Source: Betaproteobacteria bacterium (GTDB lineage Bacteria; Pseudomonadota; Gammaproteobacteria; Burkholderiales; Thiobacillaceae). From it: a stretch of 64,000 bases of DNA. The stretch covers positions 165,248 to 229,247 of the forward strand of contig JACRNB010000008.1 of the NCBI GenBank assembly GCA_016219425.1, in the 5' to 3' direction. Within the stretch, counting starts at the first letter, position 1; each line of letters opens with the position of its first letter. The notes under the pieces are model-generated. The model had not been told where the DNA came from and did no database searches. It saw only the letters and a program-made list of their open reading frames with translations. Positions 21,540 through 37,884 of the stretch are shown here, in pieces. A program made the translations under genes and the position numbers.

Positions 21540-21671
21540 TGTGCGGTGCGATTCGGTCTTGTCGGCCCGGCGGGTGGGTCTACCATCCGGGGCTGCCGAG
21601 GAGGTGCGCAGTCTTTTGCGCTTCGCGCTTTTTTGGCGACACACGACCTTTCGACATTCCAAGGAGACGCC

Positions 21672-22124
21672 ATGAAACCCTCGTTAGCCATGATCCTTCC
21701 CGCCCTGTTGATGACCGTTCCGGCCCAGGCGGAAGACAGTACCTATGCCAAACATGTCCGCCCGCTCTGGGAAGCGAAGTGCATGGCCTGTCATGGAGAA
21801 AGGTCGCCCTATCTGGCCGAGTTTCTGAGCAAGAAGGAGCATTACACCAAGTTATCGCTGGGGCCGCGCATGGATTCGTACCCTGCCCTGGTCATGTATG
21901 TGGGCTGGCCCGACACCGGCGCCTTCATGCGGCGTCTGGATGACGGCAAGAACGCCAAGAACGGGAAGCCGGGCAACATGTATGTGCACCTGGGCGCGGA
22001 CGAGGCGGAGCGTCAGAAGAACCTCGCCGTGATGAAGGCCTGGGTGGGCGAAGGGGGCTGGGTGTTGTCCAAGTTCAAGGATCTGACGCGGGAAGACCTG
22101 GGCAAGATGCAGGTCAAGGAGTAA
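21672..22124 (+). CDS. Periplasmic monohaem cytochrome c
   Basis: The 150-residue protein has a signal peptide (MKPSLAMILPALLMTVPAQA) and one haem c attachment motif (CMACHG) near residue 38. Methionines further on (SYPALVMYVGWP, GKPGNMYVHLG) could give the axial ligand. AAGGAG precedes the ATG. It resembles small cytochromes of unknown partner found in sulfur- and iron-oxidising betaproteobacteria. It has its own terminator. Confidence 0.82.
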   Translation: MKPSLAMILPALLMTVPAQAEDSTYAKHVRPLWEAKCMACHGERSPYLAEFLSKKEHYTKLSLGPRMDSYPALVMYVGWPDTGAFMRRLDDGKNAKNGKPGNMYVHLGADEAERQKNLAVMKAWVGEGGWVLSKFKDLTREDLGKMQVKE

Positions 22125-22156: not shown

Positions 22157-22193
22157 ACACCCAAGCCCCTTTCAGGCGCTTGGGTGTTTTTTT
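22157..22193 (+). terminator. Terminator after the cytochrome c gene
   Basis: ACACCCAAGC (22157-22166) pairs with GCTTGGGTGT (22178-22187) and is followed by a run of T. It overlaps the last codons of the convergent hyfI-like gene. Confidence 0.88.
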
Positions 22194-22729
22194 GCAGAAG
22201 CGCCTGCGCCGCTCACCGCGGCCAGGATGCCCGCCAGCAGCGCCGCCGGCGTGGGCGGGCAGCCGGGCACTTCCACATCCACCGGGATGACGTTGGCGAT
22301 CTTGCCGCAACTGGCGTAGTTGGGGCCGAACATCGCGCCCACGCTGCCGCAGCCGCCGGCGCAATCGCCCATGGCCACCACCCACTTGGGTTCCGGGGTG
22401 GCGTCGTAGGTGCGTTTCAAGGCGGTCTCCAGGTTGCGCGAGACCGGGCCGGTGACCAGCAGCACGTCCACATGGCGCGGGCTGGCGGCGAATTTCACGC
22501 CCAGGCCTTCGATGTTGTAGTGCGGGCCGCCCAAGGCGTGAATCTCCAACTCGCAGCCGTTGCAGGAGCCGGCGTCCACATGGCGGATGGCGACCGCCTG
22601 GCCGAATACCTTGAGGATTTCCTCGTGCAGTTCCTGCTCCCGCGTGCGCAGGGAGAGGTCGGCGGCGGGGGGCGCTTCCGAGACGATGCCGGTCTTGAAG
22701 ATCTTCTGGAGGATGAGATGGGTGGCCAT
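22172..22729 (-). CDS. HyfI/NuoB-like iron-sulfur subunit
   Basis: The 185-residue soluble subunit matches the small subunit of group 4 [NiFe]-hydrogenases and complex I. The cysteines for the proximal [4Fe-4S] cluster are retained (GSCNGCELEI, MGDCAGGCG, EVPGCPP). It is the last gene of the SulP/carbonic anhydrase/Hyf-like operon, two bases after the large subunit. It should pass electrons to or from the modified large subunit. No ferredoxin-like HyfA/NuoI partner is in the operon, so the electron donor is unclear. Confidence 0.9.
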   Translation of the reverse strand: MATHLILQKIFKTGIVSEAPPAADLSLRTREQELHEEILKVFGQAVAIRHVDAGSCNGCELEIHALGGPHYNIEGLGVKFAASPRHVDVLLVTGPVSRNLETALKRTYDATPEPKWVVAMGDCAGGCGSVGAMFGPNYASCGKIANVIPVDVEVPGCPPTPAALLAGILAAVSGAGASAKKHPSA

Positions 22730-22731
22730 GG

Positions 22732-24264
22732 TTACAAGTCCTGCCCGCTGTAGCTCAGGTTGAAGGATTTATTGATGAGCGGGAAGTCGGGGACGATGTT
22801 GCCCAGCACCCCCACTTCCAGCAGCGGCCAGTTTTGCCAGGAGGGGTCGTGCGGGTGGACGCGGTCGAGCCGGCCATCGGCGCCGATCCGCACCGCCACC
22901 AGCACCTCGCCGCGCCAGCCTTCCACCCAGCCCAAGCCCTCGCAGGGGGCGCTGACGGGGGCGAGGGGCGCATGCAGCGGCCCCGCCGGCAGATGCCGGG
23001 CGATCTCGCGGATCAGGCGCAGCGATTCGACCACTTCGGCGAAACGCACCTCGGCGCGGGCGAGCACGTCGCCCTTGCGGTGGGTGGCCATGTTCACCTC
23101 CAGGCGGTCGTAAGGGGCCTGGGGGAACTGGGCGCGGGCGTCCCAGGCCTGGGCGCTGGCGCGACCCGCCAGGCCGGTCAACCCCAGGCGCGCCGCCAGG
23201 GCGGGCTTGCAGATTCCGGTGTTGGCGAAGCGGTCCTGCAGGCCGGCGTGTTCGTCGTAGATGGTCTTGAGCTCGCGCACCTCGGCTTCAAGGCGGTCGG
23301 CGGCGGCCAGCAGCGCCGGCGCATCCGCCAGGTCTGCGGCGACGCCGCCGGGGAGGATGCAGTCGAACAGGTAACGGTGGCCGAACAGTTGGGCGCTGAG
23401 GCGCAGCCAGTCTTCCTTCAGCCGCCAGAACTGCATGAAGCCGAACGAGAGCGCCACGTCGTTGCCCAGGTAGCCCAGGTCGCCCAGATGGTTGGCGATG
23501 CGCTCGATCTCCAGGAACAGGGCGCGCAGCCAGACCGCGCGCTCGGGGACGGCGCTGCCCGTGGCCTGCTCGACGGCTATGCAGTAGGCCCAGGCGAAGG
23601 CGCTATGGCTGTCGCCGGAGACGCGTCCGGCCAGACGCGCGCCGGCGGCGAGGTCCATGCCTTCGAAGCGTTTTTCCACGCCCTGGTGGGTGTAGCCCAG
23701 GCGCTGTTCCAGCTTGAGGATGCGGTCGCCGATGATGGAGAAGCGGAAGTGGCCGGGCTCGATGGTTCCCGCATGGATCGGGCCGACCGGGATCTCGTGG
23801 ACGCCCTCGCCCTCCACCCGCAGGAAGGGGTAGCCATCCACTGGCGTAGCGCCGGTGGCCGCGACGAAATCGCGGCGCAGGGGGAACTCTTCCGCGCCCC
23901 AGGCGTTGTGGCGCAGCCATTTGCGCGCGTCCACCGCGCCCTCCGCGCGCAGGCCCAGGAGGTCGAAGGTCGCCCGCTGCATACGGTCGGCCTGGGGGAA
24001 CAGGGCGGACAGGTCCGGGTAGGCGGGTGCGGCAGCGGCAAGCGCTGCGCTCACCCAGGCCAGGCCGTTGGCGGTGATGCAGGCGATGTGGAGGGAATAT
24101 CCGTCGCCCAGATGCCGGTCATCCGCACCCCATAAGGCGACGAGCTGGCCGCCTTCCTCCTTCACCGCCTGGGCCAGTTCGGGCAGGCGGGCGGCCTCGA
24201 TCTGGCCGCGCCAGAGGTGGGGGGCTAAGGCGGTGAGATTCCAGTCCTGCTTGTTGATTTGCAT
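22732..24264 (-). CDS. HyfG/NuoCD-like large subunit lacking NiFe ligands
   Basis: The 510-residue protein fuses a NuoC-like N-terminal domain to a NuoD/hydrogenase large-subunit domain (PVGPIHAGTIEPGHFRFSI, YTHQGVEKRFEGMD). In true group 4 hydrogenases nickel is held by two CxxC motifs. Here the first reads RVSGDSHSAFAWAY, both cysteines replaced by serine, and the C terminus NKSFNLSYSGQDL has none. It therefore cannot carry a NiFe centre and belongs with the energy-converting hydrogenase-related (Ehr) type of complex. It abuts HyfF with one base between. Confidence 0.9.
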   Translation of the reverse strand: MQINKQDWNLTALAPHLWRGQIEAARLPELAQAVKEEGGQLVALWGADDRHLGDGYSLHIACITANGLAWVSAALAAAAPAYPDLSALFPQADRMQRATFDLLGLRAEGAVDARKWLRHNAWGAEEFPLRRDFVAATGATPVDGYPFLRVEGEGVHEIPVGPIHAGTIEPGHFRFSIIGDRILKLEQRLGYTHQGVEKRFEGMDLAAGARLAGRVSGDSHSAFAWAYCIAVEQATGSAVPERAVWLRALFLEIERIANHLGDLGYLGNDVALSFGFMQFWRLKEDWLRLSAQLFGHRYLFDCILPGGVAADLADAPALLAAADRLEAEVRELKTIYDEHAGLQDRFANTGICKPALAARLGLTGLAGRASAQAWDARAQFPQAPYDRLEVNMATHRKGDVLARAEVRFAEVVESLRLIREIARHLPAGPLHAPLAPVSAPCEGLGWVEGWRGEVLVAVRIGADGRLDRVHPHDPSWQNWPLLEVGVLGNIVPDFPLINKSFNLSYSGQDL

Positions 24265-24265
24265 C

Positions 24266-25720
24266 TCAGCCTCCCAGCAGCGCCGCCGCCTGGCGATACC
24301 ACGTCGCCAGATAGGGCGGGATGAACAGTCCCAGCATCAGCACCAGGCCCAGGTGGATGAACACCGGGGTGAGGGCGGGCTGGTAAGGCAGCCGGGGCAT
24401 CTCGGTCTCGCCGAACACCATGGGCTGCACCTTGCCGAAGATCGAGGCGAACGCCACGCCCAGCGCCAAGAGCAGGAAGGGCGTGGCCCAGGGGTGCTCG
24501 TGCATGGCGGTGGTGATGATGAGGAACTCGCTGGCGAACACGCCGAAGGGCGGTACGCCGAGGATGGCAATCGTGCCCAGCATCAGGCCCCAGCCGATGG
24601 TGGGGTTGGTCTTGATCAGGCCGCGGATGTCGTCCATCAACTGCGTACCCGCCTTCTGGGTGGCGTGGCCCACGGCGAAGAAGATGGCGGACTTGGTGAG
24701 CGAGTGCATGGTCATGTGCAGCAGGCCGGCGAAGCTCGCCACCGCCCCGCCCATGCCGAAGGCGAAGGTGACGAGGCCCATGTGCTCGATGGAGGAGTAG
24801 GCAAACATGCGCTTCACGTCGGTCTGGCGCTTGATGAGAAAGGCGGCCAGCACCACCGAGAGCAGGCCGAAACCCATCATCAGGTTGCCGGCCATGTCTG
24901 TGCCCAGGGCGCCGTCCACCAGCACCTTGGAGCGCATCACCGCATACAGGGCCACGTTCAGCAGCAGGCCGGAGAGCACGGCGGAGACCGGCGTGGGGCC
25001 TTCGGCGTGGGCGTCGGGCAGCCAGTTGTGCAGGGGCGCCAAGCCCACCTTGGTGCCGTAACCCACCAGCAGGAATACGAAGGCGAGTTGCAGCACGGTG
25101 GGTTCCAGTTGCGTCTTGACCTCGTTCAGGTGGGTCCAGAGCAGGGCGGTGCCGCCGGAGCCCAGGACTTTTTCCGCCGCGAAGTAGAGCAGGATGGTGC
25201 CGAACAGGGCCTGGGCGATGCCCACGCCGCACAGGATGAAGTACTTCCACGCCGCTTCCAGCGAGGCCGGGCTGCGGTACAGGGACACCAGCAGCACCGT
25301 GGCCAGGGTGGCCGCTTCCATCGACACCCACAGGATGCCCATGTTGTTGGTGGTGAGCGCCAGCAGCATGGCGGCGATGAAAATCTGATAACTGCTGTGA
25401 TACAGGCGCAGGCGCTTGTCGTTGAGGCGGCCATGCTCCTTCTCGATGCGCATGTAGGGGCGCGAGAACAGCGACGTGGTGAAGGCCACGAAGGCGGTCA
25501 GCGCCACCAGGAAGACGTTGAACGGGTCGATGAAGAACCAGCCTTCGCCGCCCACCGTCATGGGGCCGTGCTCGATGATGCGGGCGGTGAGCGCCGCCGC
25601 CGCGATCAGCGTCAGCAGGCTGAACAGGGCGTTGATCTCGGGGGCATTGCGGCGATTGCCCCAGAGCGCCAGAAAGACCCCGCCACTGAGGGGGATGCCG
25701 AGTAACCAGTAGATTTCCAT
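24266..25720 (-). CDS. HyfF-like antiporter-type membrane subunit
   Basis: The 484-residue polytopic protein (about 13-14 helices) belongs to the NuoL/M/N-Mrp family and is closest to HyfF. Characteristic segments include LLVGYGTKVGLAPLHNWLPD, DAHAEGPTPVSAVLSGLLLN and MFAYSSIEHMGLV, with the conserved charged residues used for proton movement. It would form one of two ion-translocating modules. A CGTCATTCCCGCG repeat separates it from HyfE. Confidence 0.92.
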   Translation of the reverse strand: MEIYWLLGIPLSGGVFLALWGNRRNAPEINALFSLLTLIAAAALTARIIEHGPMTVGGEGWFFIDPFNVFLVALTAFVAFTTSLFSRPYMRIEKEHGRLNDKRLRLYHSSYQIFIAAMLLALTTNNMGILWVSMEAATLATVLLVSLYRSPASLEAAWKYFILCGVGIAQALFGTILLYFAAEKVLGSGGTALLWTHLNEVKTQLEPTVLQLAFVFLLVGYGTKVGLAPLHNWLPDAHAEGPTPVSAVLSGLLLNVALYAVMRSKVLVDGALGTDMAGNLMMGFGLLSVVLAAFLIKRQTDVKRMFAYSSIEHMGLVTFAFGMGGAVASFAGLLHMTMHSLTKSAIFFAVGHATQKAGTQLMDDIRGLIKTNPTIGWGLMLGTIAILGVPPFGVFASEFLIITTAMHEHPWATPFLLLALGVAFASIFGKVQPMVFGETEMPRLPYQPALTPVFIHLGLVLMLGLFIPPYLATWYRQAAALLGG

Positions 25721-25740
25721 GGCTTATTGGTCCACTACGC

Positions 25741-25828
25741 CGTCATTCCCGCGCACGCGGGAATCCAGGTCGTTCATCAAACTGCAATCAGAGTTACGCA
25801 CTGGATTCCCGCGTTCGCGGGAATGACG
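25741..25828. repeat. CGTCATTCCCGCG inverted repeat
   Basis: CGTCATTCCCGCG...CGCGGGAATCCAG (25741-25769) is followed by its inverted counterpart ending GGGAATGACG at 25828. It sits in the HyfE-HyfF gap inside the operon. A relative is at 46936-47042. Confidence 0.88.
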
Positions 25829-25854
25829 GGTGCGCGGGGCGGCTGGCAATGTGC

Positions 25855-26517
25855 TCATCGCTCTTTCAGCTTTTCCATGTGTTTCAGGTCCAGCGAATCG
25901 AAGGTCTCGCGGATCTGGAAGAAGAAGATGCCCAGCACGAACACGCCCACCAGCACGTCCAGGGCCACGCCCATCTCCACCACCATGGGCATGCCGTAGG
26001 TGGCGCTGGTGGCGGCGAAGAACAGGCCGTTTTCCATGGCCAGAAAGCCGATCACCTGGGGGATGGCCTTGCTGCGGGTGATCATCATGAGGAAGGCGAG
26101 CAGCACGCTGGCCATGGCGATCCCCAAGGTGGAGCGGGTCACGGTGCCGGACATCTGCGAGATGGGCATGGCCAGATTGAAGGCGAAGATCACCAGCACG
26201 ATGCCGATCAACATGGTGGTGGGGATGGTGATCATGGGTTCCACGTCGCGGTCCACGTCCAGCTTGCGGATCAGGCGGAAGAAGTAATAGGGCATGGCAA
26301 AGACCTTCAGCCCCAGGGTCAGCGCCGCCGAGTAGTACAGGTGATGCTGGCCGGTGGACCAGGCGACGATGGCGGTGGATAGAGAAAGCGCCGCGCCCTG
26401 CACGGCGAACAGCGTCACCAGCCCGGCAATGCGGCGCTGCGACAGCATGGCGAAGGAGATCAGCAGCAGCAGGGCGGCCAGCAGGTTGACGACTTGCAGG
26501 GGGTAGGACAGGGCCAC
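25855..26517 (-). CDS. HyfE-like membrane subunit
   Basis: The 220-residue protein has about six to seven TM helices, including a NuoK-like core (MGVALDVLVGVFVLGIFFFQ near the C terminus). It corresponds to HyfE of hydrogenase 4-type complexes. The start is GTG (VALSYPLQVVNLLAALLL) because GGAGG lies about six bases before it; the upstream open frame is repeat-derived and not TM-like. Confidence 0.88.
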   Translation of the reverse strand: MALSYPLQVVNLLAALLLLISFAMLSQRRIAGLVTLFAVQGAALSLSTAIVAWSTGQHHLYYSAALTLGLKVFAMPYYFFRLIRKLDVDRDVEPMITIPTTMLIGIVLVIFAFNLAMPISQMSGTVTRSTLGIAMASVLLAFLMMITRSKAIPQVIGFLAMENGLFFAATSATYGMPMVVEMGVALDVLVGVFVLGIFFFQIRETFDSLDLKHMEKLKER

Positions 26518-26537
26518 TTCAGACCTCCGCGGTTTCG

Positions 26538-26670
26538 CTCCCCTCCCCCCTGGAGGGGGAGGGGCTGGGGGAGAGGGGGCGGGCGCGCCAGCGCCCGTGT
26601 TGAGAGTTCGCAAGCGATGCCTTGCATCGCTCACCCTCTCCCCGACCCTCCCCCCTCAAGGGGGAGGGAG
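26538..26670. repeat. CCCTCCCCC-type paired repeat (MITE-like)
   Basis: A left arm with CCCTCCCCCCTGGAGGGGGA and a right arm ending CCCTCAAGGGGGAGGGAG face each other across about 50 bases, giving a stem of about 130 bases in the HyfC-HyfE gap. The same family is at 34513-34650 and 57027-57154. Confidence 0.88.
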
Positions 26671-26690
26671 AAATGCGCATCACGCTCACG

Positions 26691-27635
26691 TCAGACCTCC
26701 AGCAGGAAATGGATCAACATGCCCAGCACCCCCAGCAGGAAGGCGGTGCCGAGAAACTCCGGCGCGCGGAACAGCCGCACCTTGGCGGAGATGGCCTCCA
26801 GCAGCGACAGGGCCGCGCCGCCCGCCATCATCTTCAGCAACAGGGCCAGCACGGCCAGCGGCAGGGCGTAGAGATCGCCGCGCGGGGCGATGCCCCAGGG
26901 TACGAACAGGGCGATGCCGAGGGCGGAATAGGTGAACAGCTTCAAGGCCACGGCCCATTCGATCAGCGCCAGATGGCGCGCCGAGTACTCCAGGATCATG
27001 GCCTCGTGGATCATGGTCAGTTCCAGGTGGGTGGTGGGGTTGTCCACCGGGATGCGCGCGTTTTCCGCCGTGGACACCATCCAGAACGCCACCGCCGCGA
27101 ACGCCATGCTGGGGTAGATGACGAACTGCTTGTGCGCCAGGGCCTCGACGATGGTGGGCAGTTCGGTGGAGTGGGAGATCAGGCTGGCGGTGAAGAACAC
27201 CATCAGCAGCGCCGGTTCGGCCAGAAAGGAGACCAGCATCTCGCGCCGCGCGCCCAAGGTTCCGAAGGAGGTGCCGATGTCCATGGCGGCCAGGGCCAGA
27301 AACACCCGCGCCAGGGCAAACACCCCCACCAGGGCGATGGCGTCCGCCGCCGGGGAGAACGGCAGGTCGTTGGCGATGGTGGGCACCAGACCCGCCGCCA
27401 GGGCCATGCAGGCGAACACCATGTAGGGCGCGAAGCGGAACAGGGGCGAGGCGTTGTGGGCGATCACCACATCCTTGTGGAACAGCTTTTTCAGGGTGCG
27501 ATAGGGCTGCGTGAGGGGCGGCGCGCTGCGACCTTGCAGCCAGGCGCGGCACTGGTTGACCCAGCCCATGAGCAGCGGCGCCAGCAGGATGGCGGCGAGG
27601 GTCTGGGCGATTTGCAGGAGGATGCCGGTGCTCAT
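26691..27635 (-). CDS. HyfC/NuoH-like membrane subunit
   Basis: The 314-residue protein with about eight helices is the NuoH/HyfC homologue that docks the soluble arm to the membrane arm. The conserved loop MIHEAMILEYSARHLALIEW and STAENARIPVDNPTTHLELT are diagnostic. ATG 27635 (MSTGILLQIAQTL) is used; an earlier in-frame ATG would read through a repeat. Confidence 0.92.
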   Translation of the reverse strand: MSTGILLQIAQTLAAILLAPLLMGWVNQCRAWLQGRSAPPLTQPYRTLKKLFHKDVVIAHNASPLFRFAPYMVFACMALAAGLVPTIANDLPFSPAADAIALVGVFALARVFLALAAMDIGTSFGTLGARREMLVSFLAEPALLMVFFTASLISHSTELPTIVEALAHKQFVIYPSMAFAAVAFWMVSTAENARIPVDNPTTHLELTMIHEAMILEYSARHLALIEWAVALKLFTYSALGIALFVPWGIAPRGDLYALPLAVLALLLKMMAGGAALSLLEAISAKVRLFRAPEFLGTAFLLGVLGMLIHFLLEV

Positions 27636-27641
27636 CGCAAC

Positions 27642-27668
27642 TCCCCCCTTTTCCAAAAGGGGGGTTCA
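27642..27668. repeat. CCCCCCTTTT palindrome in HyfB-HyfC gap
   Basis: CCCCCCTTTTCCAAAAGGGGGG is a near-perfect palindrome followed by TTCAA. The same family occurs at 32685-32706 and 58422-58494. Confidence 0.8.
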
Positions 27669-27693
27669 AAACACAGGTTGTCTCGCATGGTGC

Positions 27694-29703
27694 TCACCGC
27701 GTAACAAAAACAAGCAAAAAGATCAGGGTGGCAAAGCTGTAGATCAGGTACCACTGGATGCGCCCGTGTTGCAGGCGACCGGCCTTGTCGGAAAGCCACG
27801 CGGCCACGTCGGCGATGGGCTGGTACAGCAGCACCCAGAGCTTGTCGCGGCTGTCGCCCCGGTAGCGGGGGTGGCGGTCGAACGGGTCCGGGGTCTCGCG
27901 TTCCACGCGCATGAAGCTGCTGAAGATCTGGCGGATGGGCTGGCCGAAGCCCTCGGCGCTGTCCTGCATGCGCGCATCCTGTTCCGGGTAGCCGCAATCC
28001 CACGGGTCGGCGCGGCGGATGCGTCCGTGATAGACCCGGCGCACCCAGATGAACACCAGCAACAGCGTTACCAGCACCACGGCGAAGAACACCAGCGGCG
28101 CGTAGCTGGCGCGTTCCGCATCCACCGGTGCGAGCAGGAACCAGGAGCCGTCGTTGACCAGGGTCTGGCCGGTCAACAGGCGGACCACCGGGGCCAGGGC
28201 GGCGATGACCTGGGCCGGGAACAGGCCCAGGGCGACGCAGCCCGCCGCCAGCCAGATCATCCCCAAGCGTTCGCGCCAGCCCGCCTCATGGGCCTTCGCC
28301 ACCGCCCCGGAGCGCGCCACGCCGAGAAAGGTGACGCCGAAGAACTTCACCATCACATAGGCCGCCAGGGCCGCGGCCAGGGCCACGGAAGCGGCGGCCA
28401 CCGGGATCACCATGTTGAGGTAGCTCTGGTTCAGGCCCGGGGTGAGCAGAAACGCCTGCAACAACAGCCATTCCGAGACGAAACCGTTGAGCGGCGGCAG
28501 GCCGGCGATGGCCAGCGCGCCGATCAGGGTCAGCCAGGCGGTCCAGGGCATGACCCGCATCAGGCCGCCCAACTTGTCCATGTTGCGTTCGCCGGTGGCG
28601 TGCAGCACCGCGCCCGCGCCGGTGAACAGCAGACCCTTGAAAAAAGCGTGGTTGAGGGCGTGGTAGAGCATGGCCGTGAGGGACAGGGCCGCCAGCGCGC
28701 CCTTGCCGTCGGTGTAGAAGATCAGGGTGAGGCCGAAACCGGCCAGCAGTACGCCGATGTTCTCGATGGAGGACCAGGCCAGCAGGCGTTTCATGTCCGA
28801 TTGCACGGCGGCAAAGATCACGCCGTAGAGCGCGGTGACCAGACCCAGGGCCAGCGCCAGCGCGCCCCACCAGCCCAGTTGCACGTTGAGCAGGTCGAAG
28901 GTGACGCGCAAGAGGCCGTAGATGGCGGTCTTCAGCATCACCCCGGACATCAGGGCGGAAACCGGCGAGGGCGCCGCCGGGTGCGCCTCGGGCAGCCAGA
29001 CGTGCATGGGCACCAGGCCCGCCTTGGCGCCGAAGCCGAACAGGGCCAGGAGGAAGGCGACGGAGGCCCAGAACGGCGTCATCTCGGCCAGACGCATGGT
29101 GTCGAAGGTGTAATCGCCCGCCCCTTCCACCCCGCCGCCTTGCAGGACGCCGAAACACAGCAGCAGCGCCACCGCGCCGACGTGGGCAATGAGCAGATAG
29201 AGAAAACCGGCGCGGCGGATGTCCGGCTGGTCGTGGTCGGTGGTGACCAGGAAGTAGGAAGACAGCGCCATCACCTCCCACGCCACCATGAAGGCGTAGG
29301 CGTCATCCGCCAGCAGCACCGTGGTCATGCCCGCCAGAAACAGGTGGTACCAGAGCAGCAGCAGGGCCAGGGAGCCGGATTCCTGGTGACGGAAATAGCC
29401 CCAGGCGTAGAGGGTCACGCCGAACGCCGCGCCCCCGAGCAGGATCAGGAAGAAGGCGGAGAGTTCGTCCAGGCGCAGATGGAAGGGCAGGTCCGGCAGG
29501 CCGATGGGCAGGACGATGGCGCTGGCGTGGCCCAGCAGCGCCATGGCCCCGATGGCGGCGAGCCCCAGGGCCACGATTGCGCCGAGCGGGAAGATCAGGT
29601 TCAACAGGCCGCGCAGGCGTTGCACCAGCAGGGCCGCCAGGCCCAGACCCAACCAGCACAGCACACCGGCCCAGGCCAGTTGCACTAGAGATAGATCCAT
29701 CAT
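27694..29703 (-). CDS. HyfB-like antiporter-type membrane subunit
   Basis: The 669-residue NuoL-type protein has about 16 helices. FGFGAKAGLVPMHVWLPEAH, PAAPSPVSALMSGVMLKTAI and LLAWSSIENIGVLLAGFG are the classic transporter motifs, and a second segment HALNHAFFKGLLFTGAGAV is present. It matches HyfB of hydrogenase 4 and the DabB family more generally. It is the first Hyf-like gene after the carbonic anhydrase, four bases from its stop. ATG 29703 is preferred; 29718 would overlap the preceding gene. Confidence 0.92.
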   Translation of the reverse strand: MMDLSLVQLAWAGVLCWLGLGLAALLVQRLRGLLNLIFPLGAIVALGLAAIGAMALLGHASAIVLPIGLPDLPFHLRLDELSAFFLILLGGAAFGVTLYAWGYFRHQESGSLALLLLWYHLFLAGMTTVLLADDAYAFMVAWEVMALSSYFLVTTDHDQPDIRRAGFLYLLIAHVGAVALLLCFGVLQGGGVEGAGDYTFDTMRLAEMTPFWASVAFLLALFGFGAKAGLVPMHVWLPEAHPAAPSPVSALMSGVMLKTAIYGLLRVTFDLLNVQLGWWGALALALGLVTALYGVIFAAVQSDMKRLLAWSSIENIGVLLAGFGLTLIFYTDGKGALAALSLTAMLYHALNHAFFKGLLFTGAGAVLHATGERNMDKLGGLMRVMPWTAWLTLIGALAIAGLPPLNGFVSEWLLLQAFLLTPGLNQSYLNMVIPVAAASVALAAALAAYVMVKFFGVTFLGVARSGAVAKAHEAGWRERLGMIWLAAGCVALGLFPAQVIAALAPVVRLLTGQTLVNDGSWFLLAPVDAERASYAPLVFFAVVLVTLLLVFIWVRRVYHGRIRRADPWDCGYPEQDARMQDSAEGFGQPIRQIFSSFMRVERETPDPFDRHPRYRGDSRDKLWVLLYQPIADVAAWLSDKAGRLQHGRIQWYLIYSFATLIFLLVFVTR

Positions 29704-29707
29704 CGGT

Positions 29708-30268
29708 TCAGAACTCATTTCGTATGCGTTTGTAGCCCTTCACCAACTCATGATTGGCCTGGGCCACGCTTTCCGAGAAGCCGGCCTGGTCGGGCGTGAC
29801 CCGCTGAATCGTGGCCAGGTCGGCATCGGAGTGGATGTTGCTGGTGGAGGGGATGTAGAAGCCCGGCGGTACGTTGCAGCCTTCCACCACGGAGTTGTGC
29901 CGCACCACGGAGCCATCTCCCACGGCGCAGTTGAACAGGACCGAGTTGAAGCCGATGAAGACGTTGTCGCCCACTGTGCAGGGGCCATGCACGATGGAGC
30001 GATGGGCGATGGAGGTGCCGGAGCCGATCACCACGCCGCCGCCCGCCTTGCAATGGATCACGACGCCATCCTGGATGTTGGAATCGGCGCCGATCACGAT
30101 GGGTTCCATCTCGCCGTTTTCGTCCACCTCGTCCGCGCGGATGACGGCGTAGGGGCCGATGAACACATGCTCCATGACGATGACCTTGCCGCACAGGATG
30201 GCGGTGGGATCAACGAAGGCGGTTTCATGGATCTGGGGGATGTGGCCGGAGGGGTTGCGACGGATCAT
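29708..30268 (-). CDS. Gamma-class carbonic anhydrase
   Basis: The 186-residue left-handed beta-helix protein has hexapeptide repeats (GPYAVIRADE, IVIGADSNIQDGVVIH). It aligns well with archaeal Cam. Arg44, Asp46 and Glu47 (IRADE), Gln66, and zinc ligands His72, His89 and His94 (VIH; SIAHRSIVHGP) are all present. The acidic loop of Cam is missing, as in CamH. It lacks a signal peptide, so it should act in the cytoplasm or on the inner face of the membrane. It lies between a SulP transporter and hyfB in one operon, which argues for a role in CO2/bicarbonate handling. Confidence 0.92.
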   Translation of the reverse strand: MIRRNPSGHIPQIHETAFVDPTAILCGKVIVMEHVFIGPYAVIRADEVDENGEMEPIVIGADSNIQDGVVIHCKAGGGVVIGSGTSIAHRSIVHGPCTVGDNVFIGFNSVLFNCAVGDGSVVRHNSVVEGCNVPPGFYIPSTSNIHSDADLATIQRVTPDQAGFSESVAQANHELVKGYKRIRNEF

Positions 30269-30401
30269 GGCGGGGCGCTCTTTGGCAAGGGGAGAACAGG
30301 GGGATTCTAGTTCTCCGCATTGCGGGCGCTGCGGGCCGCCGGGGCTTGCTCCGGCTCCGTGATTCAACCCAACCAGTTTCAGAATCGTTGCCATGGCGGG
30401 G

Positions 30402-32126
30402 TCAGGCTGCCGCTTTCACCAGACAGAACAGGTCATCCTTCGCCACATCCCCCAGTCGCTCGTAGATCGCCGCCAGGGCCTGATCCTCGGTGGCGAAGAT
30501 GTTGGCCTGGGTGATGAGGTCGAACAGCCCGGTGGCGCGCATCACGTCCAGCACCTGCTTCTTGAGCCCCGAGAACACCAGTTCCACGCCCGCGCCGCGC
30601 AGGCGTTCCACCAGGTGATGGATCACCTCCTCGCCGGAGGCGTCCAACTGGTTGATGCCATCGCCCACCACCAGGAAATAGGTTGCCTTGGGGTGGTCCG
30701 CGAGGGCGGTGAGCACGGTGTCCTCAAAGAACGACACGTTGGCGAAATAGAGCTGGCCGTCGAAGCGCATGGCCACCACATGCTCGCTGGTGGGCAGGCC
30801 GGGGTTGACGCTGATATCGCGCAGGGTGCCGTCCTTGTAACGGCCCAACTGCGCCACGCGCGGCTTCATGGTGCGCATCAGGAACAGGACCAGGGCCAGC
30901 CCTGCGCCCACCATGATGCCGTTGTCCAGGTGCGGGGCGAACGCCAGGGTGGCGATGAAGGTGACCACGGCGGCGATGCCGTCATGCCGGTTGGCGTGCC
31001 AGGCGTGCTTCACCGCCTGGAAGTTCACCAGCCCGATCACCGCCATGATGATGATGGCGGCCAGCACCGCCTGCGGCAGGTGGTACAGCAGCGGGGTGAG
31101 GAACAGCAGCGTGAGCAGCACGAACAGCGCGGTGAACACCGAACTCATGCCGGTCTTGGCCCCCGCGTTGATGTTCACCGCCGAACGCGAGAACGAACCG
31201 GAGCCCGGAAACGCCTGGGTGAAGGAGCCGGCGATGTTGGCCAGGCCCTGGCCCACCAGTTCCTGGTTGGGGTCCAGGCGCTGCTTGGTCCTGGCGGCGA
31301 TGGCCTTGGCGATGGAAATGGCTTCCATGAAGCCCACCAGCGAGATCACCAGGGCGGCGGAGAGCAGCGAGCCCAGCTTGTCCATGTCCAGACGCGGCGC
31401 GGCGACGCTGGGCAGGCCCTCGGGGATGGCGCCCACCACCTTGCCGCCCAGGGTCTGCTCGAACCCCATCGCCCAGGACAGGGTCGTGGTCAGCGCTACC
31501 GCGATCAGCACGCCGGGCCATTTCGGCTGGTATTTGCGGATCGCCCACATCAGGGCGATGGCCGCCACGCCCATGGCCAGGGTGGGCAGGTGGGTGTCGC
31601 CGATCAGGCGCGCCACGCCGACGATGTCCTGGATGAAATGCTCGCTGCGCCCCATCGGTACGCCGAACAGTTTGGACACCTGCGACAGGCCGATGATGAT
31701 GGCCGCCGCGTTGGTGAAGCCGACGATGACCGGGTGCGACAGGAAGTTGACGATCACGCCCAGTTTGAACACCCCCAGCAGCAACTGGATCACCCCCACC
31801 AGCAGCGCCAGCATGATGGCCAGGGCGACGAAGTCGGGCGAGCCGGGTGCGGCGAACACCGTGAGCGAGGAGGCCGTCAGCAAGGACACCACCGCCACCG
31901 GCCCGGTGCCCAACTGGTTGGACGAGCCCCACAGCGCCGCCACCGCCACCGGCAGAAAGGCCGCGTAGAGGCCGTAATAGGCGGGCAGCCCCGCCAGTTG
32001 CGCGTAGGCCATGGACTGGGGGATGAGCACCAGGGCCACGGTGATGCCCGCCATGAAGTCGGCCTTGAGGATGTCCCCCTTCATGGGGAACCAGCGCAGG
32101 AAGGGGAGGAAACGGGTCAATGGCAT
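30402..32126 (-). CDS. SulP anion transporter 1 (candidate bicarbonate transporter)
   Basis: The 574-residue inner-membrane transporter has a SulP core (IPQSMAYAQLAGLPAYYGLY, GSFSRSAVNINAGAKTGMSS) and a C-terminal STAS domain (about 440-560) with the INQLDASGEE loop, whose Ser is the usual regulatory phosphorylation site. SulP members carry sulfate, bicarbonate or other anions. Being co-transcribed with a gamma carbonic anhydrase and a Hyf-like complex favours bicarbonate. Its C-terminal third is very similar to SulP2 at 37885. Confidence 0.88.
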   Translation of the reverse strand: MPLTRFLPFLRWFPMKGDILKADFMAGITVALVLIPQSMAYAQLAGLPAYYGLYAAFLPVAVAALWGSSNQLGTGPVAVVSLLTASSLTVFAAPGSPDFVALAIMLALLVGVIQLLLGVFKLGVIVNFLSHPVIVGFTNAAAIIIGLSQVSKLFGVPMGRSEHFIQDIVGVARLIGDTHLPTLAMGVAAIALMWAIRKYQPKWPGVLIAVALTTTLSWAMGFEQTLGGKVVGAIPEGLPSVAAPRLDMDKLGSLLSAALVISLVGFMEAISIAKAIAARTKQRLDPNQELVGQGLANIAGSFTQAFPGSGSFSRSAVNINAGAKTGMSSVFTALFVLLTLLFLTPLLYHLPQAVLAAIIIMAVIGLVNFQAVKHAWHANRHDGIAAVVTFIATLAFAPHLDNGIMVGAGLALVLFLMRTMKPRVAQLGRYKDGTLRDISVNPGLPTSEHVVAMRFDGQLYFANVSFFEDTVLTALADHPKATYFLVVGDGINQLDASGEEVIHHLVERLRGAGVELVFSGLKKQVLDVMRATGLFDLITQANIFATEDQALAAIYERLGDVAKDDLFCLVKAAA

Positions 32127-32145: not shown

Positions 32146-32225
32146 GTAGCGCCGGCATTCTTGCCGGCATGTGCGCCGTGAGGCGGGCTTGCAGCCCGCG
32201 TTGCCGGCAAGGATGCCGGCGCTAC
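32146..32225. repeat. GTAGCGCCGGCATTC repeat pair
   Basis: GTAGCGCCGGCATTCTTGCC at the left is matched by an inverted copy ending GCGCTAC at 32225. A smaller palindrome (GCGGGCTTGCAGCCCGC) is nested inside. It fills the gap between the Usp-like gene and SulP1. Confidence 0.88.
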
Positions 32226-32249: not shown

Positions 32250-32621
32250 TCATGGCTCTTCCGGCAGGTTCGGGTGATCGGAAGCGGCCACCAGCGGGCA
32301 TTCCAGCTTGCTCCAGGGGTCGCCGCCTTCCTTGGCCCAGGCGGCGGGACGCCCCACCACCACGGAGGTCACGCATTCATGGCGGCGCGCGTGTTCCACC
32401 ACGCGGCGCGCGTCCAGGCCGGGGGCCGGGGTCAGGCGGCAGACCACGCCGTCCTGCTCCAGCGCCGCCAGACGCACCTCCAGCTCGGCCCAGTCCGGGC
32501 GCGCCGGGTCCGCCAGCACCTCCAGCTCCGCCTCCATGCGCCGACACAGCGAAGCGCCCACCGACAGCAGGCGCTCCACCGGCGAGACCGGACGCAGGGC
32601 GACGACGATGCGACGTTTCAT
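32250..32621 (-). CDS. UspA-like small protein
   Basis: The 123-residue cytosolic protein starts with a UspA-type strand (MKRRIVVALRPVSPVERLLS), has a central helix-rich part, and ends with HECVTSVVVGRPAAWA and CPLVAASD. This fits a divergent universal stress protein fold, though the ATP-binding G-x2-G-x9-G(S/T) motif is not clear. It is upstream of SulP1 in the same transcript. A similar small protein precedes SulP3, so it may be a regulatory partner of these transporters. Confidence 0.6.
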   Translation of the reverse strand: MKRRIVVALRPVSPVERLLSVGASLCRRMEAELEVLADPARPDWAELEVRLAALEQDGVVCRLTPAPGLDARRVVEHARRHECVTSVVVGRPAAWAKEGGDPWSKLECPLVAASDHPNLPEEP

Positions 32622-32787: not shown

Positions 32788-32821
32788 GCAGCGTCCGGTT
32801 GCATTCGACGTGTTGCCATTA

Positions 32822-32836
32822 GCAGCAAGCGTGCCA
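32822..32836 (-). promoter_or_regulatory. Candidate sigma-54 promoter of the SulP1/CA/Hyf-like operon
   Basis: On the minus strand TGGCACGCTTGCTGC matches the sigma-54 consensus TGGCACG-N4-TTGC except for one T, with the required ten bases between GG and GC. The start would be near 32811, about 190 bases before the Usp-like ATG. A sigma-54-type regulator gene lies just across the divergent kinase gene. Confidence 0.7.
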
Positions 32837-32900
32837 TCCCGATAAACCGCCCTAACCCATTGAAATTGCGTGGTCATTACGCGGCGCGCCGAATATGCGA

Positions 32901-32915
32901 GTTTCATATTGCAAC
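32901..32915. promoter_or_regulatory. Candidate regulator site GTTTC-N5-GCAAC
   Basis: GTTTCATATTGCAAC is an imperfect inverted repeat 90-104 bases upstream of the predicted sigma-54 start and 22 bases before the kinase ATG. It is close to GTTGCATTACGCAAC before SulP2 (37849) and to GTTTC-N6-GAAAC before the SulP3 operon (43066). It is proposed as a binding site for one or both NtrC-type regulators. Confidence 0.45.
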
Positions 32916-32936
32916 ACCGCTGTTACACTCTGCCCC

Positions 32937-34502
32937 ATGCGTTCCCTGCAAGCCAAGATCGTCTTTGTCTACCTCGCCCTGGCCGCGCTCATCGTCGGGC
33001 TTTCGGCGGTGGCGCTGTTCGAGCTCGACCGCATCGCCGACAAGGCGCGCGAGGGCGGCAAGGTGGCGGAGCTGTTCGACGCCACGCTGGAGATGCGCCG
33101 TTTCGAGAAGAACCACTTCCTCTACGCCCAGGCCAGCGATCTGGCCGAACACGCCCGTTTCGTCGCCCGCGCGCAGGAACTGCTGCGACGCGACGCCGCC
33201 GTGATCGATGCGCTTGCCGGCGCCAACGCCGCCGCCGGCCTGCAACGCGACCTCTCGCACTACGCCGTGGCCATGGAGGCGCACGCCCAGACCCCGTTCG
33301 ACGAGGCCATCGCCGCCGCCGTGCGCGCCCTGGGCAACCGCATCGTCACGGCGGGGGAACGTCTGGCGACGCGCGAACGCGAGTCGATGAACGCCGCCCT
33401 GGCGGCGCACCGGCGCAACCTGCTGGTCTCGCTGGCGGTGGTCGCCGCCCTGCTGGGCCTGACCGGGTTCCTGCTCGCGCGCCAGGTGACGCGTCCGCTC
33501 CAGGCGATGGAGACGCGCATGGAGGCGGTGGCCAACGGCCAGCTCACGCGCCTGGCCCTGGATAGCCCGGAACGCGAATTCGTCTCCCTGGCCGAGGCCT
33601 TCAACCACGTCCTCGACGAGCTGGAGCGCCGCCAGCACACCCTGGTGCGGGCGGAAAAGCTCGCTTCGCTGGGGACGCTGCTCTCCGGCGTGGCGCATGA
33701 GTTGAACAACCCGCTGTCCAACATCTCCTCCTCCGCCCAAATCCTGAAAGAAGACCTGCCCCCCTCCCCCACCGGGGGAGGGGCTGGGGGTGAGGGAGCA
33801 ACGCATCCAGCTCCGCGCCCATCCAGCGGCCCCGGCATGCAGGCCGGGGCGCGCCCTGCAAGGGAGGGAGCAACATTGGACAAGTCTCAAGCCTTCCATC
33901 GCCAACTCATCGAAGACATCGACGCCGAGACCCTGCGCGCGCGCCGCATCGTGCGCACCCTGCTGGACTATGCCGGGGACCGTGAATTCAAACCCGCGCC
34001 GGTGGTTCTGGGCGAACTGGTGGAGGAGACGCTGCGCTTCCTCAAGGCCAAGCGCCCGCCCGGCGTGGAAGTGCGCGTGGAGATCGCGCCGGACCTCACG
34101 GTGAGCGGCGACCGCCCGCGTCTGCAACAAGTGCTGCTCAACCTCATGGTCAACGCCTTCGACGCCATCGGCGCCCATGGCGCCCTGGACATCACGGCGC
34201 GCGCGGGCGTGGTCGGCAAGGGCGACGGTTTCCCCGCCCTCTCCGGCCAATGCCGCCCCGGCAGCGCGGTGGTGGACCTCCTCCTCGCCGACAGCGGCCC
34301 CGGCATCCCGCCGGAACTCCTGTCCCGCGTCTTCGACCCCTTCTTCACCACCAAGGCCATCGGCCACGGCAGCGGCCTGGGGCTGTTCATCACCTTTGAA
34401 ATCGTCGAAGAGCACGGCGGCTGCATCGCCGTGAGCAACCGTCCCGAGGGCGGTGCGGAGTTCCGCCTCCGCCTGCCCGGACAGGAGGCCGGCCATGGGT
34501 GA
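32937..34502 (+). CDS. Sensor histidine kinase 1 of the SulP-linked system
   Basis: The 521-residue membrane kinase has TM1 at about 7-27, a periplasmic helical sensor with the HBM-like motif LEMRRFEKNHFLYA, TM2 at about 160-182, HAMP, a DHp domain with phospho-acceptor His254 (GVAHELNNPLSNI) and an ATPase domain (NLMVNAFDAIGA, DSGPGIPPE, GHGSGLGLF). Residues 274-314 (PPSPTGGGAGGEGATHPAPR and on) are an in-frame repeat insertion in the turn between the two DHp helices, absent from the paralogue at 41383. It pairs with the regulator at 34668 and is divergent from the SulP1 operon. Confidence 0.9.
   Translation: MRSLQAKIVFVYLALAALIVGLSAVALFELDRIADKAREGGKVAELFDATLEMRRFEKNHFLYAQASDLAEHARFVARAQELLRRDAAVIDALAGANAAAGLQRDLSHYAVAMEAHAQTPFDEAIAAAVRALGNRIVTAGERLATRERESMNAALAAHRRNLLVSLAVVAALLGLTGFLLARQVTRPLQAMETRMEAVANGQLTRLALDSPEREFVSLAEAFNHVLDELERRQHTLVRAEKLASLGTLLSGVAHELNNPLSNISSSAQILKEDLPPSPTGGGAGGEGATHPAPRPSSGPGMQAGARPAREGATLDKSQAFHRQLIEDIDAETLRARRIVRTLLDYAGDREFKPAPVVLGELVEETLRFLKAKRPPGVEVRVEIAPDLTVSGDRPRLQQVLLNLMVNAFDAIGAHGALDITARAGVVGKGDGFPALSGQCRPGSAVVDLLLADSGPGIPPELLSRVFDPFFTTKAIGHGSGLGLFITFEIVEEHGGCIAVSNRPEGGAEFRLRLPGQEAGHG
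33758..33880. repeat. In-frame repeat insertion within kinase 1
   Basis: CCCCCTCCCCCACCGGGGGA (from about 33760), a GGGGCTGGGGGTGAGGGAG stretch, and a CCCCGGCATGCAGGCCGGGG palindrome make up about 120 bases with no counterpart in kinase 2. It carries no stop codon in the kinase frame. Confidence 0.85.
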
Positions 34503-34667: not shown

Positions 34668-36020
34668 ATGACTGCCCGCCTCCTCCTCGTCGATGACGAA
34701 AAAATCGCCCTGCGCAACCTGGAACACGTCCTCAGCAAGGAGGGCTACCAGATCACCGCCACGCAAAGCGGCCCCCACGCCCTGGAGCTGCTGGACGGCC
34801 AGCCCTTCGACCTGGTGCTCACCGACATGAAGATGGACAAGGTGGACGGGATGCAGCTTCTGCGCCGCTGCAAGGCGCAGCACCCGGACACCGAGGTCAT
34901 CATGATCACCGGCTACGCCACCCTGGAAACCGCCGTGGCGGCGATGAAGGAAGGCGCGTTTCACTACATCGCCAAGCCCTTCCGCCTGGACGAGGTGCGC
35001 CAGACCGTGGCCGAGGCGCTGGAGAAGCTGCGCCTGAAACGCGAGAACCGCGCCCTGCGCGCCCAGCTCGACGCATTTGAAGGCCGCAGCCGCGTCATCA
35101 CCCGCGATGGCGGCATGCAGAAGCTGCTGGACATGGCGCGCCAGGTCGCCCCCACCGGCTGCAACGTCCTCATCACCGGCGAATCCGGCACCGGCAAAGA
35201 GCTATTCGCGCGCTGCCTGCACGAGCACGGCGGACGTCCCGACGGCCCCTTTCTCGCCATCAACTGCGGCGCGTTCAACGAGGAACTGCTCGCCAACGAA
35301 CTGTTCGGCCACGAGAAGGGCGCATTCACCGGCGCGGTGGGCAAGACCGGCCTGCTGGCGGCGGCGCACGGCGGCACGCTGTTTCTGGACGAGGTGACGG
35401 AGATGTCGCTGGCCATGCAGGTAAAGCTGCTGCGCGCGATCCAGGAGAAAGAGGTGCTGCCGGTAGGCTCCACGCGCCCGCAAAAGGTGGACGTGCGCTT
35501 CATCGCTGCGAGCAACCGGGATATGAAGGGGTGGGTGGCGGACGGGCGCTTCCGGCAAGACCTGTACTACCGCCTCAACGTGGTCAACCTGCACATCCCG
35601 CCCCTGTCGCAGCGACGCGAGGACATCCCGCTCTTGGCGCAGCACTTTCTCGACCGCGCCGCCCCGGTGATGGGCAAGCCGGTGCGCACGATCTCGGAAG
35701 ACGCCCTGGCCCTGCTCAAGGCCTACGACTTCCCCGGCAACGTGCGCGAGCTGGAAAACATCATCGAACGCGGCGTGGCCCTGTGCCAGGGCGACACCCT
35801 GGAGGCCGCCCACCTGCCGGACGACCTGCGCGACCTCACCATCCGCGCCTTCCGCCGCCGCGACGGGCGCGTGGTCCCGCTGGAAGAACAAGAGCGGGAG
35901 TACATCCTCTGGGTACTGGACGAGGCCCGCGGCAACCAGACCCTGGCAGCGCAGATGCTGGGGATAGACCGGGTTTCGCTGTGGCGGAAGTTGAAGAAGT
36001 ATGGGGAGGAGCGGGGGTAG
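34668..36020 (+). CDS. NtrC-family response regulator 1 (sigma-54 activator)
   Basis: The 450-residue protein has a receiver domain with Asp53 (LVLTDMKM) and Lys in HYIAKPF, an AAA+ domain with Walker A GESGTGKE, the sigma-54 contact loop GAFTGA and Walker B GGTLFLDEV, and a Fis-type HTH (NQTLAAQMLGIDRVSLWRKL). It should activate sigma-54 promoters when phosphorylated by kinase 1. The recognition helix GIDRVSLWR is identical to that of regulator 2 at 40031, implying overlapping DNA targets. Confidence 0.95.
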   Translation: MTARLLLVDDEKIALRNLEHVLSKEGYQITATQSGPHALELLDGQPFDLVLTDMKMDKVDGMQLLRRCKAQHPDTEVIMITGYATLETAVAAMKEGAFHYIAKPFRLDEVRQTVAEALEKLRLKRENRALRAQLDAFEGRSRVITRDGGMQKLLDMARQVAPTGCNVLITGESGTGKELFARCLHEHGGRPDGPFLAINCGAFNEELLANELFGHEKGAFTGAVGKTGLLAAAHGGTLFLDEVTEMSLAMQVKLLRAIQEKEVLPVGSTRPQKVDVRFIAASNRDMKGWVADGRFRQDLYYRLNVVNLHIPPLSQRREDIPLLAQHFLDRAAPVMGKPVRTISEDALALLKAYDFPGNVRELENIIERGVALCQGDTLEAAHLPDDLRDLTIRAFRRRDGRVVPLEEQEREYILWVLDEARGNQTLAAQMLGIDRVSLWRKLKKYGEERG

Positions 36021-37781: not shown

Positions 37782-37848
37782 GGTGAACGCTCCGCGCATG
37801 GGCGGGCCTGACCGTATTTGCTAAACTGCTGCGATTCCCAATGGCATG

Positions 37849-37863
37849 GTTGCATTACGCAAC
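37849..37863. promoter_or_regulatory. Candidate regulator site before SulP2
   Basis: GTTGCATTACGCAAC is a perfect GTTGC/GCAAC inverted repeat ending 21 bases before the SulP2 ATG. It closely resembles GTTTCATATTGCAAC at 32901. No sigma-54 promoter with correct spacing was found here. Confidence 0.45.
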
Positions 37864-37884
37864 AATCACAACAGGCATCTCAGC

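Follow-up and report, generated by a model that had tools for sequence, protein, structure and literature searches.

Genes and predicted products of the operon

We analysed a 64,000-nucleotide stretch of DNA (referred to below as the window) from a betaproteobacterium of the family Thiobacillaceae (contig JACRNB010000008.1, positions 165,248 to 229,247, assembly GCA_016219425.1), which contains an operon joining genes for a SulP anion transporter, a gamma carbonic anhydrase (gCA), and a membrane complex, HyfBCEFGI, related to hydrogenase 4. The genome comprises 3.1 Mb in 16 contigs, and its closest named relative among the matches listed is a Thiobacillus metagenome-assembled genome (MAG), with 76% identity in HyfG. 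A sequence-only reading of the window had placed nine genes (usp, sulP, gCA, hyfB, C, E, F, G, and I) on a single strand, separated by small or repeat-filled gaps, and the sequence and the positions of the open reading frames (ORFs) confirm this order on the minus strand. The span that it quoted, 22172-32126, holds eight of the genes; the first gene, which encodes a small Usp-like protein of 123 amino acids (32250..32621), falls beyond its end. This gene matches nothing in Pfam or NCBIfam and is Usp-like by context only.

The second gene (30402..32126) encodes a SulP transporter with a STAS domain (PF00916, 2e-109; PF01740, 1e-15), which scores above the cut-off of a SulP subfamily model in NCBIfam (443 bits). 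It is followed by the gCA gene (29708..30268; 186 amino acids), the stop codon of which overlaps the called start of hyfB by 11 bases. Two antiporter-like subunits, HyfB (27694..29718) and HyfF (24266..25720), match Proton_antipo_M in Pfam and, above cut-off, hydrogenase 4 subunit models in NCBIfam. The remaining genes encode a NuoH-like subunit, HyfC (26691..27656; Pfam NADHdh), the membrane subunit HyfE (25855..26517; NCBIfam match below cut-off), a NuoC/NuoD-like fusion, HyfG (22732..24264; Pfam 30 kDa and 49 kDa), and a NuoB-like subunit, HyfI (22172..22729; Pfam Oxidored_q6). Three start codons were revised from relatives: those of SulP (32126), gCA (30268), and HyfE (26517, shifted inward from the ORF at 26634). 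Inverted or direct repeats do occur in some of the gaps (27637-27663 and 32146-32225), including an inverted repeat with 34-nt arms between hyfE and hyfF (25740..25829). The plus-strand gene at 21456-22124, convergent with hyfI, encodes a small protein that has a CxxCH motif and looks by eye like a c-type cytochrome.

The gCA had been said to keep its three zinc histidines and the IRADE and NIQDG motifs, and indeed R44, D46, E47, Q66, D67, H72, H89, and H94 are all retained. Its Pfam match is to Hexapep (6e-19), and every NCBIfam carbonic anhydrase (CA) model displayed for it scores below cut-off. Among solved structures, the nearest are dGCA1 (117 bits), Cam (approximately 100 bits), and CcmM (94-75 bits), followed by the mitochondrial gCAs (64-40 bits). 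The active-site Arg, Asp, Glu, Gln, and Asp and the three His are invariant in all ten aligned copies of the 12 known; the alignment omits the copies at two of the related loci that we fetched (numbered with the prefix L), namely L063, where the gene is broken, and L073, where it is cut by a contig end. The three zinc His and the active-site Arg, Asp, and Gln that define a Cam/CcmM-type enzyme are thus present, and the window gCA is predicted to belong to the active type. At L063, the gCA (2761-3027) is shortened to 88 amino acids, precedes a diverged Hyf module, and is probably a decayed copy.

The Hyf-like part had been described as having two antiporter-type subunits and no NiFe ligands, which the Pfam matches and the HyfG motifs bear out. 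Among solved structures, HyfG is nearest to formate hydrogenlyase subunit 5, with which it aligns over most of its length (301 bits, 9e-89). In place of the NiFe-binding motifs RVCGIC and DPCYSC, the window HyfG has RVSGDS and NLSYSG (within FNLSYSG), so that all four Cys are gone, together with the two CxxC motifs that mark a group 4 [NiFe] hydrogenase. The first motif takes the form R-x-S-G-D-[STA] in at least 168 of the 190 HyfG rows aligned, and a Cys occurs within it in eight rows. When HyfG is aligned with Nqo4, RVSGDS lies over RMDYLH and GPxHAGxIE over GPQHPSTHG; HyfG therefore lacks, by this alignment, the equivalents of Nqo4 His38 and Tyr87, which we take to be the quinone-holding residues of complex I. 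In contrast to these losses, the cluster residues C56, C59, C123, and C157 of HyfI (191 rows) are conserved at 97% or more, as are E148, K232, K310, and E416 of HyfB (176 rows) and E135, K224, K303, and E398 of HyfF (190 rows), the last two sets matching the residues by which antiporter-like subunits usually pump. We found no gene for a HyfA- or HyfH-type ferredoxin in the operon, using its ORFs and Pfam. HyfBCEFGI has the features of an Ehr complex (group 4-like, no Ni/Fe-coordinating residues, antiporter-like subunits), and its sequence indicates a conserved non-hydrogenase rather than a decayed hydrogenase. Because the motif and cluster residues are kept and those for NiFe and quinone are not, the former NiFe site appears to be conserved but new. 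An AlphaFold model of HyfG was left unused, its pLDDT being <50 in segments 118-121, 138-194, and 491-510.

The operon is preceded by a sigma54 -24/-12-like site, TGGCACGCTTGCTGCT (32821..32836, minus strand; pattern TGGCAC-N5-CTGCT at 32836-32821), in the gap that separates it from a divergent sensor histidine kinase gene (32895..34502, plus strand), which adjoins the operon in relatives also and for which all kinase models displayed score below cut-off. Beyond it, on the same strand, lies a gene for an NtrC-type sigma54-dependent response regulator with a GAFTGA motif (34668..36020; AtoC, ZraR, and NtrC models at 423-392 bits, below their cut-offs). The site is found in 12 of 15 corresponding gaps, the window included (nine at 10 of 11 positions and three at 9 of 11), and is absent from those of L048, L049 (71 bp), and L220; the 15 gaps were picked for a divergent kinase or regulator and come mostly from one family. 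At the window's rate of two one-mismatch matches per 64 kb, approximately 0.1 chance match would be expected in the 5.5 kb of gaps. Across the window as a whole the pattern is not enriched (37 found, 37.75 expected), and its conserved position alone is informative. Because the site is conserved and an NtrC-type regulator adjoins it, sigma54 control of the operon is likely. A second regulator/kinase pair, resembling the first by sight, is encoded at 40031-41425 and 41383-42846 (both minus strand). Two further SulP genes flank this pair on the plus strand. In the first (37846-40008), an insert of approximately 115 residues splits the transporter domain in Pfam, and its product resembles the hyf-linked SulPs of L039, L044, L050, L054, L073, and others more closely than any other protein of the window does; the second is at 43984-45756 and, like the regulator/kinase pair, lies within 14 kb of the operon.

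Conservation of the complex and its neighbours

Two peptide patterns, run over a public genome set, matched at least 585 stretches, at least 578 of them relatives (one gene may count twice), of a complex that carries hydrogenase 4 names and has no agreed function. By their record titles, the best 80 of the at least 578 come from Beta- and Gammaproteobacteria, Nitrospirae, and Mariprofundus, with one Desulfobacterales and two MAGs titled as Acidobacteria among them, and a strong copy of the module occurs in 13 of the 23 searched genomes of the window's own genus. We fetched 212 loci, ten of them near-duplicates, and called their genes with a codon-usage script, by which genes may be missed or misplaced.

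Is the order SulP, gCA, hyfBCEFGI conserved in related genomes? For SulP, linkage extends beyond close relatives. A SulP gene occupies the place immediately upstream of the module on the same strand in 27 of 131 cases, as against none of 43 on the opposite strand; of 1080 downstream genes, two encode SulP (Fisher p 2e-25). When near-duplicates were removed, the counts became 26 of 122 upstream cases and 2 of 1017 downstream genes (p 1e-24), with loci still not independent. The gCA fared otherwise, being present on only 11 of the 202 non-duplicate stretches (L040, L041, L060, the broken L063, L073, L184, L185, L193, L198, L209, and L227). Among the 110 next-upstream genes on the same strand within 450 bp, 28 encode SulP and five gCA. 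The Usp-like gene is kept upstream of the module in seven loci, where it precedes SulP or a TauE/SafE-like permease. The permease takes the place of SulP in four loci (L040:2745-5031, L041, L063, and L184; Pfam was run on L040 only), together with a small membrane protein, which in L040 has 109 amino acids and no Pfam match; this may be another bicarbonate transporter. A tandem Usp accompanies TauE/SafE in L040, L041, and L063, and in L102 (576-4436) a single reading frame of 1286 amino acids, upstream of hyfB, combines SulP with a Pfam-supported Usp domain.

A second kind of carbonic anhydrase, CsoSCA-like, is encoded on the stretches L044, L045, L054, L073, L182, L186, and L227. It matches CsoSCA_cat in Pfam (2e-5), scores 39 bits with the NCBIfam shell CA model (cut-off 241), and, among solved structures, matches CsoSCA chains alone at E values up to 1 (best 1.6e-7). 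The protein appears as a compact, free-standing relative of the carboxysome enzyme, of approximately 353 amino acids (L045:3693-4748, L054:12810-13871), with C51, D53, R55, H111, and C121 invariant in six aligned copies. In L054 and L182, this gene, a CbbR-like gene, and cbbLS lie downstream of the module. In a Thiomonas MAG (L109), a RuBisCO gene (909 bits with the form II model) lies directly after hyfI, with cbbQ-like and cbbO-like genes behind it. The stretches L045 and L052 also have cbbQ/cbbO-like genes, and L073 has one that is cbbO-like. The CbbQ, CbbO, CbbS, and CbbR labels express similarity to seeds named by sight; in NCBIfam, CbbR scored below cut-off and CbbO was unsupported, while the RuBisCO label was supported in L007, L109, and L054.

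When the presence of such inorganic-carbon markers was traced on a FastTree phylogeny of HyfG (188 rows), the label changed 13 times, at least six times on well-supported branches, compared with a mean of 37 after shuffling. The linkage has therefore been made or lost repeatedly. Together with the many copies that stand alone, this repeated linkage suggests that the six genes form an independent unit, to which gCA is an optional partner. Of the 76 unexplained upstream genes, 51 were scanned, and 25 of the 53 families that they matched were displayed: methionyl-tRNA synthetase (8) and RecG (5) were the commonest functional matches, and a recurring dehydrogenase partner was not found. A small regulator gene lies directly 5′ of hyfB in family f76 and in a number of further families outside the class. 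A few loci each have enzymes that release or fix CO2 upstream of hyfB, namely oxalyl-CoA decarboxylase (L062:3038-4795, above cut-off), phosphoenolpyruvate carboxykinase (L098:2743-4395), and, by sight, a malic enzyme-like protein (L088, L090, and L096). Tandem Hyf modules were seen in L064, L088, L089, and L189, the other module being more distant from that of the window.

Co-occurrence with RuBisCO

The window's genome encodes one RuBisCO large subunit of 452 amino acids (864 bits with PRK13475 of NCBIfam, which we take to be a form II model), adjoined by an AAA gene that we read as cbbQ-like. It also encodes one beta-CA. A CsoSCA-like gene was not found in it, in a search without a positive control, nor was DabA, the component that marks a DAB system (no match to PF10070 at 1e-20).

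Across genomes, the module and RuBisCO go together. In a sample of 300 genomes from the order, form I or II RuBisCO was present in 56 of 80 carriers of the module and in 54 of 220 non-carriers (odds ratio [OR] 7.2, p 1e-12). Kinship was handled in these tests by genus count only; by genus, 30 had both, 13 had Hyf without RuBisCO, 20 had RuBisCO without Hyf, and 71 had neither (p 1.4e-7). In 299 genomes sampled from the phylum, RuBisCO was present in 35 of the 58 carriers and in 48 of the remaining 241 genomes (OR 6.1, p 5e-9), with 31 of the 58 carriers coming from the single family f76. In the 300 genomes from the order, DabA was associated with RuBisCO more weakly (OR 2.7). Thresholds were chosen after the tables had been inspected. 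A genome was counted as Hyf-positive at 390 bits or more, which drops six of 86 matches in the order sample (G040, G172, G209, G239, G222, and G299) and five of 63 in the phylum sample (G433, G488, G519, G570, and G589), where the truncated G467 (310 bits) was retained; in the order sample, RuBisCO was counted at E <1e-100, which drops 20 of 130 matches as form IV-like or fragments.

Does the neighbourhood of the module reflect this association? The loci of 72 of the 80 carriers in the order sample were read (all except G117, G160, G164, G258, G281, G287, G290, and G316), a marker being scored anywhere on a stretch of up to 20 kb and a contig end as no marker. Inorganic-carbon markers were on the stretch in 22 of 50 RuBisCO-bearing carriers and in one of 22 RuBisCO-less carriers (p 5e-4). 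We also considered mutual exclusion of DabA and Hyf in RuBisCO-bearing genomes, and rejected it as not significant overall (14 genomes with both, 42 with Hyf alone, 21 with DabA alone, and 33 with neither; OR 0.52, p 0.15); in families f1, f15, and f21, none of 22 genomes has both.

A possible role in inorganic-carbon acquisition and its parallels

How might such an operon work? By a slight preference, we regard usp-sulP-gCA-hyfBCEFGI as an inorganic-carbon acquisition operon of an autotroph that uses the Calvin-Benson-Bassham cycle, in which HyfBCEFGI translocates protons and does not handle hydrogen. Some role in inorganic-carbon acquisition is more probable than not, and proton-coupled handling of CO2 or bicarbonate, perhaps as vectorial CO2 hydration, is plausible. 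The energy-coupled uptake system envisaged in the sequence-only reading holds up in its tie to inorganic carbon, through SulP, gCA, CsoSCA-like CA, and RuBisCO neighbours and through co-occurrence with RuBisCO. A fixed machine containing a carbonic anhydrase is disfavoured by the scarcity of gCA and by the many copies beside housekeeping or regulator genes. Because of the same ties, the purely accidental neighbour that had been offered as its alternative is unlikely.

In the proposed mechanism, a complex I-like, proton-translocating complex derived from a group 4 hydrogenase would work beside SulP, which would carry HCO3-, and gCA, which would act at the inner membrane face to interconvert CO2 and HCO3-. 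This interconversion would be coupled by the complex to proton movement, either by removing the hydration proton or by letting the proton-motive force drive hydration, and HCO3- would accumulate for RuBisCO, here the single form II enzyme of a genome in which no DabA was found. Because stand-alone copies exist, the complex may work without a dedicated carbonic anhydrase gene and could use another carbonic anhydrase of the cell. The kept HyfI cluster suggests that the cycle still includes electron transfer, which would place the complex nearer to NDH-1MS than to DAB, and the lost quinone residues suggest an acceptor other than the usual quinone.

Several observations weigh against this proposal. 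The HyfI redox cluster would be superfluous in a hydratase driven purely by the proton-motive force. The window SulP scores 144 bits with the BicA model, whose cut-off is 880, and likewise far below that of the DauA model. Besides the rarity of gCA, the majority of copies have no adjoining SulP or carbonic anhydrase, and many adjoin recG, metG, or regulator genes. Form I or II RuBisCO is absent from 24 of the 80 carriers in the order sample, no inorganic-carbon marker is on the stretch in 28 of the 50 RuBisCO-bearing carriers, and tree-corrected pairs of marker and RuBisCO included too few informative ones, giving low power. Published work, cited here and below from excerpts of the papers, adds two points: in Acidithiobacillus ferrooxidans grown on H2, CbbM was the most abundant RuBisCO and no group 4 subunit was identified (PMC7735108), and the hyf genes of Cupriavidus metallidurans CH34 and C. 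necator H16 were judged very unlikely to serve lithotrophic growth (PMC2864759).

A conceivable, if rather doubtful, account is that the complex conserves energy in a general way, as an Ehr-type machine that passes electrons from a low-potential donor through the HyfI cluster to an acceptor and pumps protons, and that autotrophs have grouped SulP and carbonic anhydrase with it without any joint work. The conserved cluster cysteines, the stand-alone copies, and the presence of the module in genomes without RuBisCO all agree with this account, as does the published description of Ehr complexes as group 4-like and without Ni/Fe-coordinating residues (PMC6349859). It is less easily reconciled with a frequency of SulP immediately upstream far above local background, with a marker label that shifts repeatedly on well-supported branches, and with the lack of a recurring dehydrogenase partner among the upstream genes scanned.

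It is improbable that the operon serves anion efflux or pH homeostasis, with SulP or TauE/SafE exporting the sulfate or sulfite of sulfur oxidation, the complex supplying or relieving proton-motive force, and the carbonic anhydrase acting on pH. The replacement of SulP by TauE/SafE and the presence of sulfur-oxidiser-titled records (e.g., Thiobacillus and Thioalkalivibrio) among the carriers would suit such an operon, but SulP is also upstream of hyfB in five methanotroph-titled loci (L130, L139, L142, L143, and L148; Pfam-confirmed in L130, L139, and L143), and the module has genes for CsoSCA-like CA and RuBisCO nearby. Published annotations in Acidithiobacillus, Nitrospira, and Desulfobacterium point to a complex that resembles formate hydrogenlyase or oxidises formate, as the nearest solved relative of HyfG might also imply. 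Such a complex is very improbable in view of the missing NiFe cysteines in the window, the lack of a first-motif cysteine in 182 of 190 HyfG rows, the absence of a HyfA/HyfH-type ferredoxin gene from the operon, the absence of a formate dehydrogenase family among the 25 displayed (of 53) for the 51 upstream genes, and the non-hydrogenase verdict of a hydrogenase classifier on the A. ferrooxidans cluster (PMC7735108).

If the operon does serve inorganic-carbon acquisition, a missing piece of the CO2 supply would be found in form II RuBisCO autotrophs without DAB, and a widespread hydrogenase 4 annotation would be corrected; a complex that recurs beside carbon-fixation genes may be an overlooked CO2-handling machine. 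We would go further only as a speculation, which we ourselves think unlikely: that the complex represents, next to NDH-1MS and DAB, a third class of energised CO2-to-bicarbonate machines, descended from hydrogenases, in which the former NiFe pocket (R-[VI]-S-G-D-S, F-N-L-S-Y-S-G) has turned into a new site. This site would link proton movement to the hydration of CO2 or the build-up of bicarbonate, by itself or together with a partner carbonic anhydrase, and the class would span Beta- and Gammaproteobacteria, Nitrospirae, and Mariprofundus-like bacteria.

Clusters with the same six gene names have been published. In A. ferrooxidans, the hyf genes (AFE2149-54) were named a group 4 hydrogenase (PMC2621215), and because the locus tags are consecutive, they would lie directly before cbbM (AFE_2155) in the cbb5 operon (AFE_2155-2158; PMC6458275); hyf directly precedes cbbM in strain NFP31 also (PMC8759370). 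The study that classified this cluster as non-hydrogenase suggested formate oxidation (PMC7735108). For a copy next to a beta-CA in A. caldus, the published reading was an H2-evolving enzyme that serves pH and CO2 homeostasis, and a core copy was said to co-occur with carbon-fixation genes (PMC3826726). The six genes are also named in C. necator (H16_A2196-A2201) and C. metallidurans (Rmet_4666-4671; PMC2864759) and in Nitrospira (PMC5596200), and these clusters are likened to that of the window by gene names. Ehr and the published hyfBCEFGI clusters thus resemble the window's complex in the six names and, where this is stated (A. ferrooxidans), in the absence of NiFe residues. They differ in how they have been read: as a hydrogenase, as formate oxidation, or as having no role in lithotrophy, with a link to SulP, carbonic anhydrase, or dissolved inorganic carbon (DIC) made, in the excerpts, in A. 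caldus only. The excerpts of a 2024 review of the DIC toolkit (PMC10880623) list the cyanobacterial NADH dehydrogenase-associated CA and do not contain "hydrogenase", "NDH", "NuoL", or "complex I". Within the excerpts returned by our literature search, whose scope excluded subscription papers and preprints, no DIC role was proposed for HyfBCEFGI.

Among the known systems, formate hydrogenlyase and hydrogenase 4 share homologous HyfB, C, E, F, G, and I with the window operon, which, in contrast, has lost the NiFe ligands and is without HyfA, HyfD, and HyfH. DAB (DabA-DabB) likewise ties an antiporter-like subunit to carbonic anhydrase activity and autotrophy, whereas the window complex has six subunits, one of them an iron-sulfur subunit, and stands with a gamma-type enzyme in a genome without a DabA match. 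Cyanobacterial NDH-1MS is similar in being a membrane complex of the complex I type with a link to CO2 hydration. Unlike it, the operon's complex belongs to the hydrogenase 4 side of the family, does not keep the quinone-site residues by alignment, and shows no NdhI-type subunit; no CupA/CupB-type subunit is among the nine operon genes by their Pfam and NCBIfam names, no Cup profile having been searched. Finally, in plant mitochondrial complex I, a gCA domain is joined to a complex I-like machine, from which the window differs in that its gCA, at 117-92 bits with the best Cam- and CcmM-type chains, is closer to these than to the mitochondrial gCAs.

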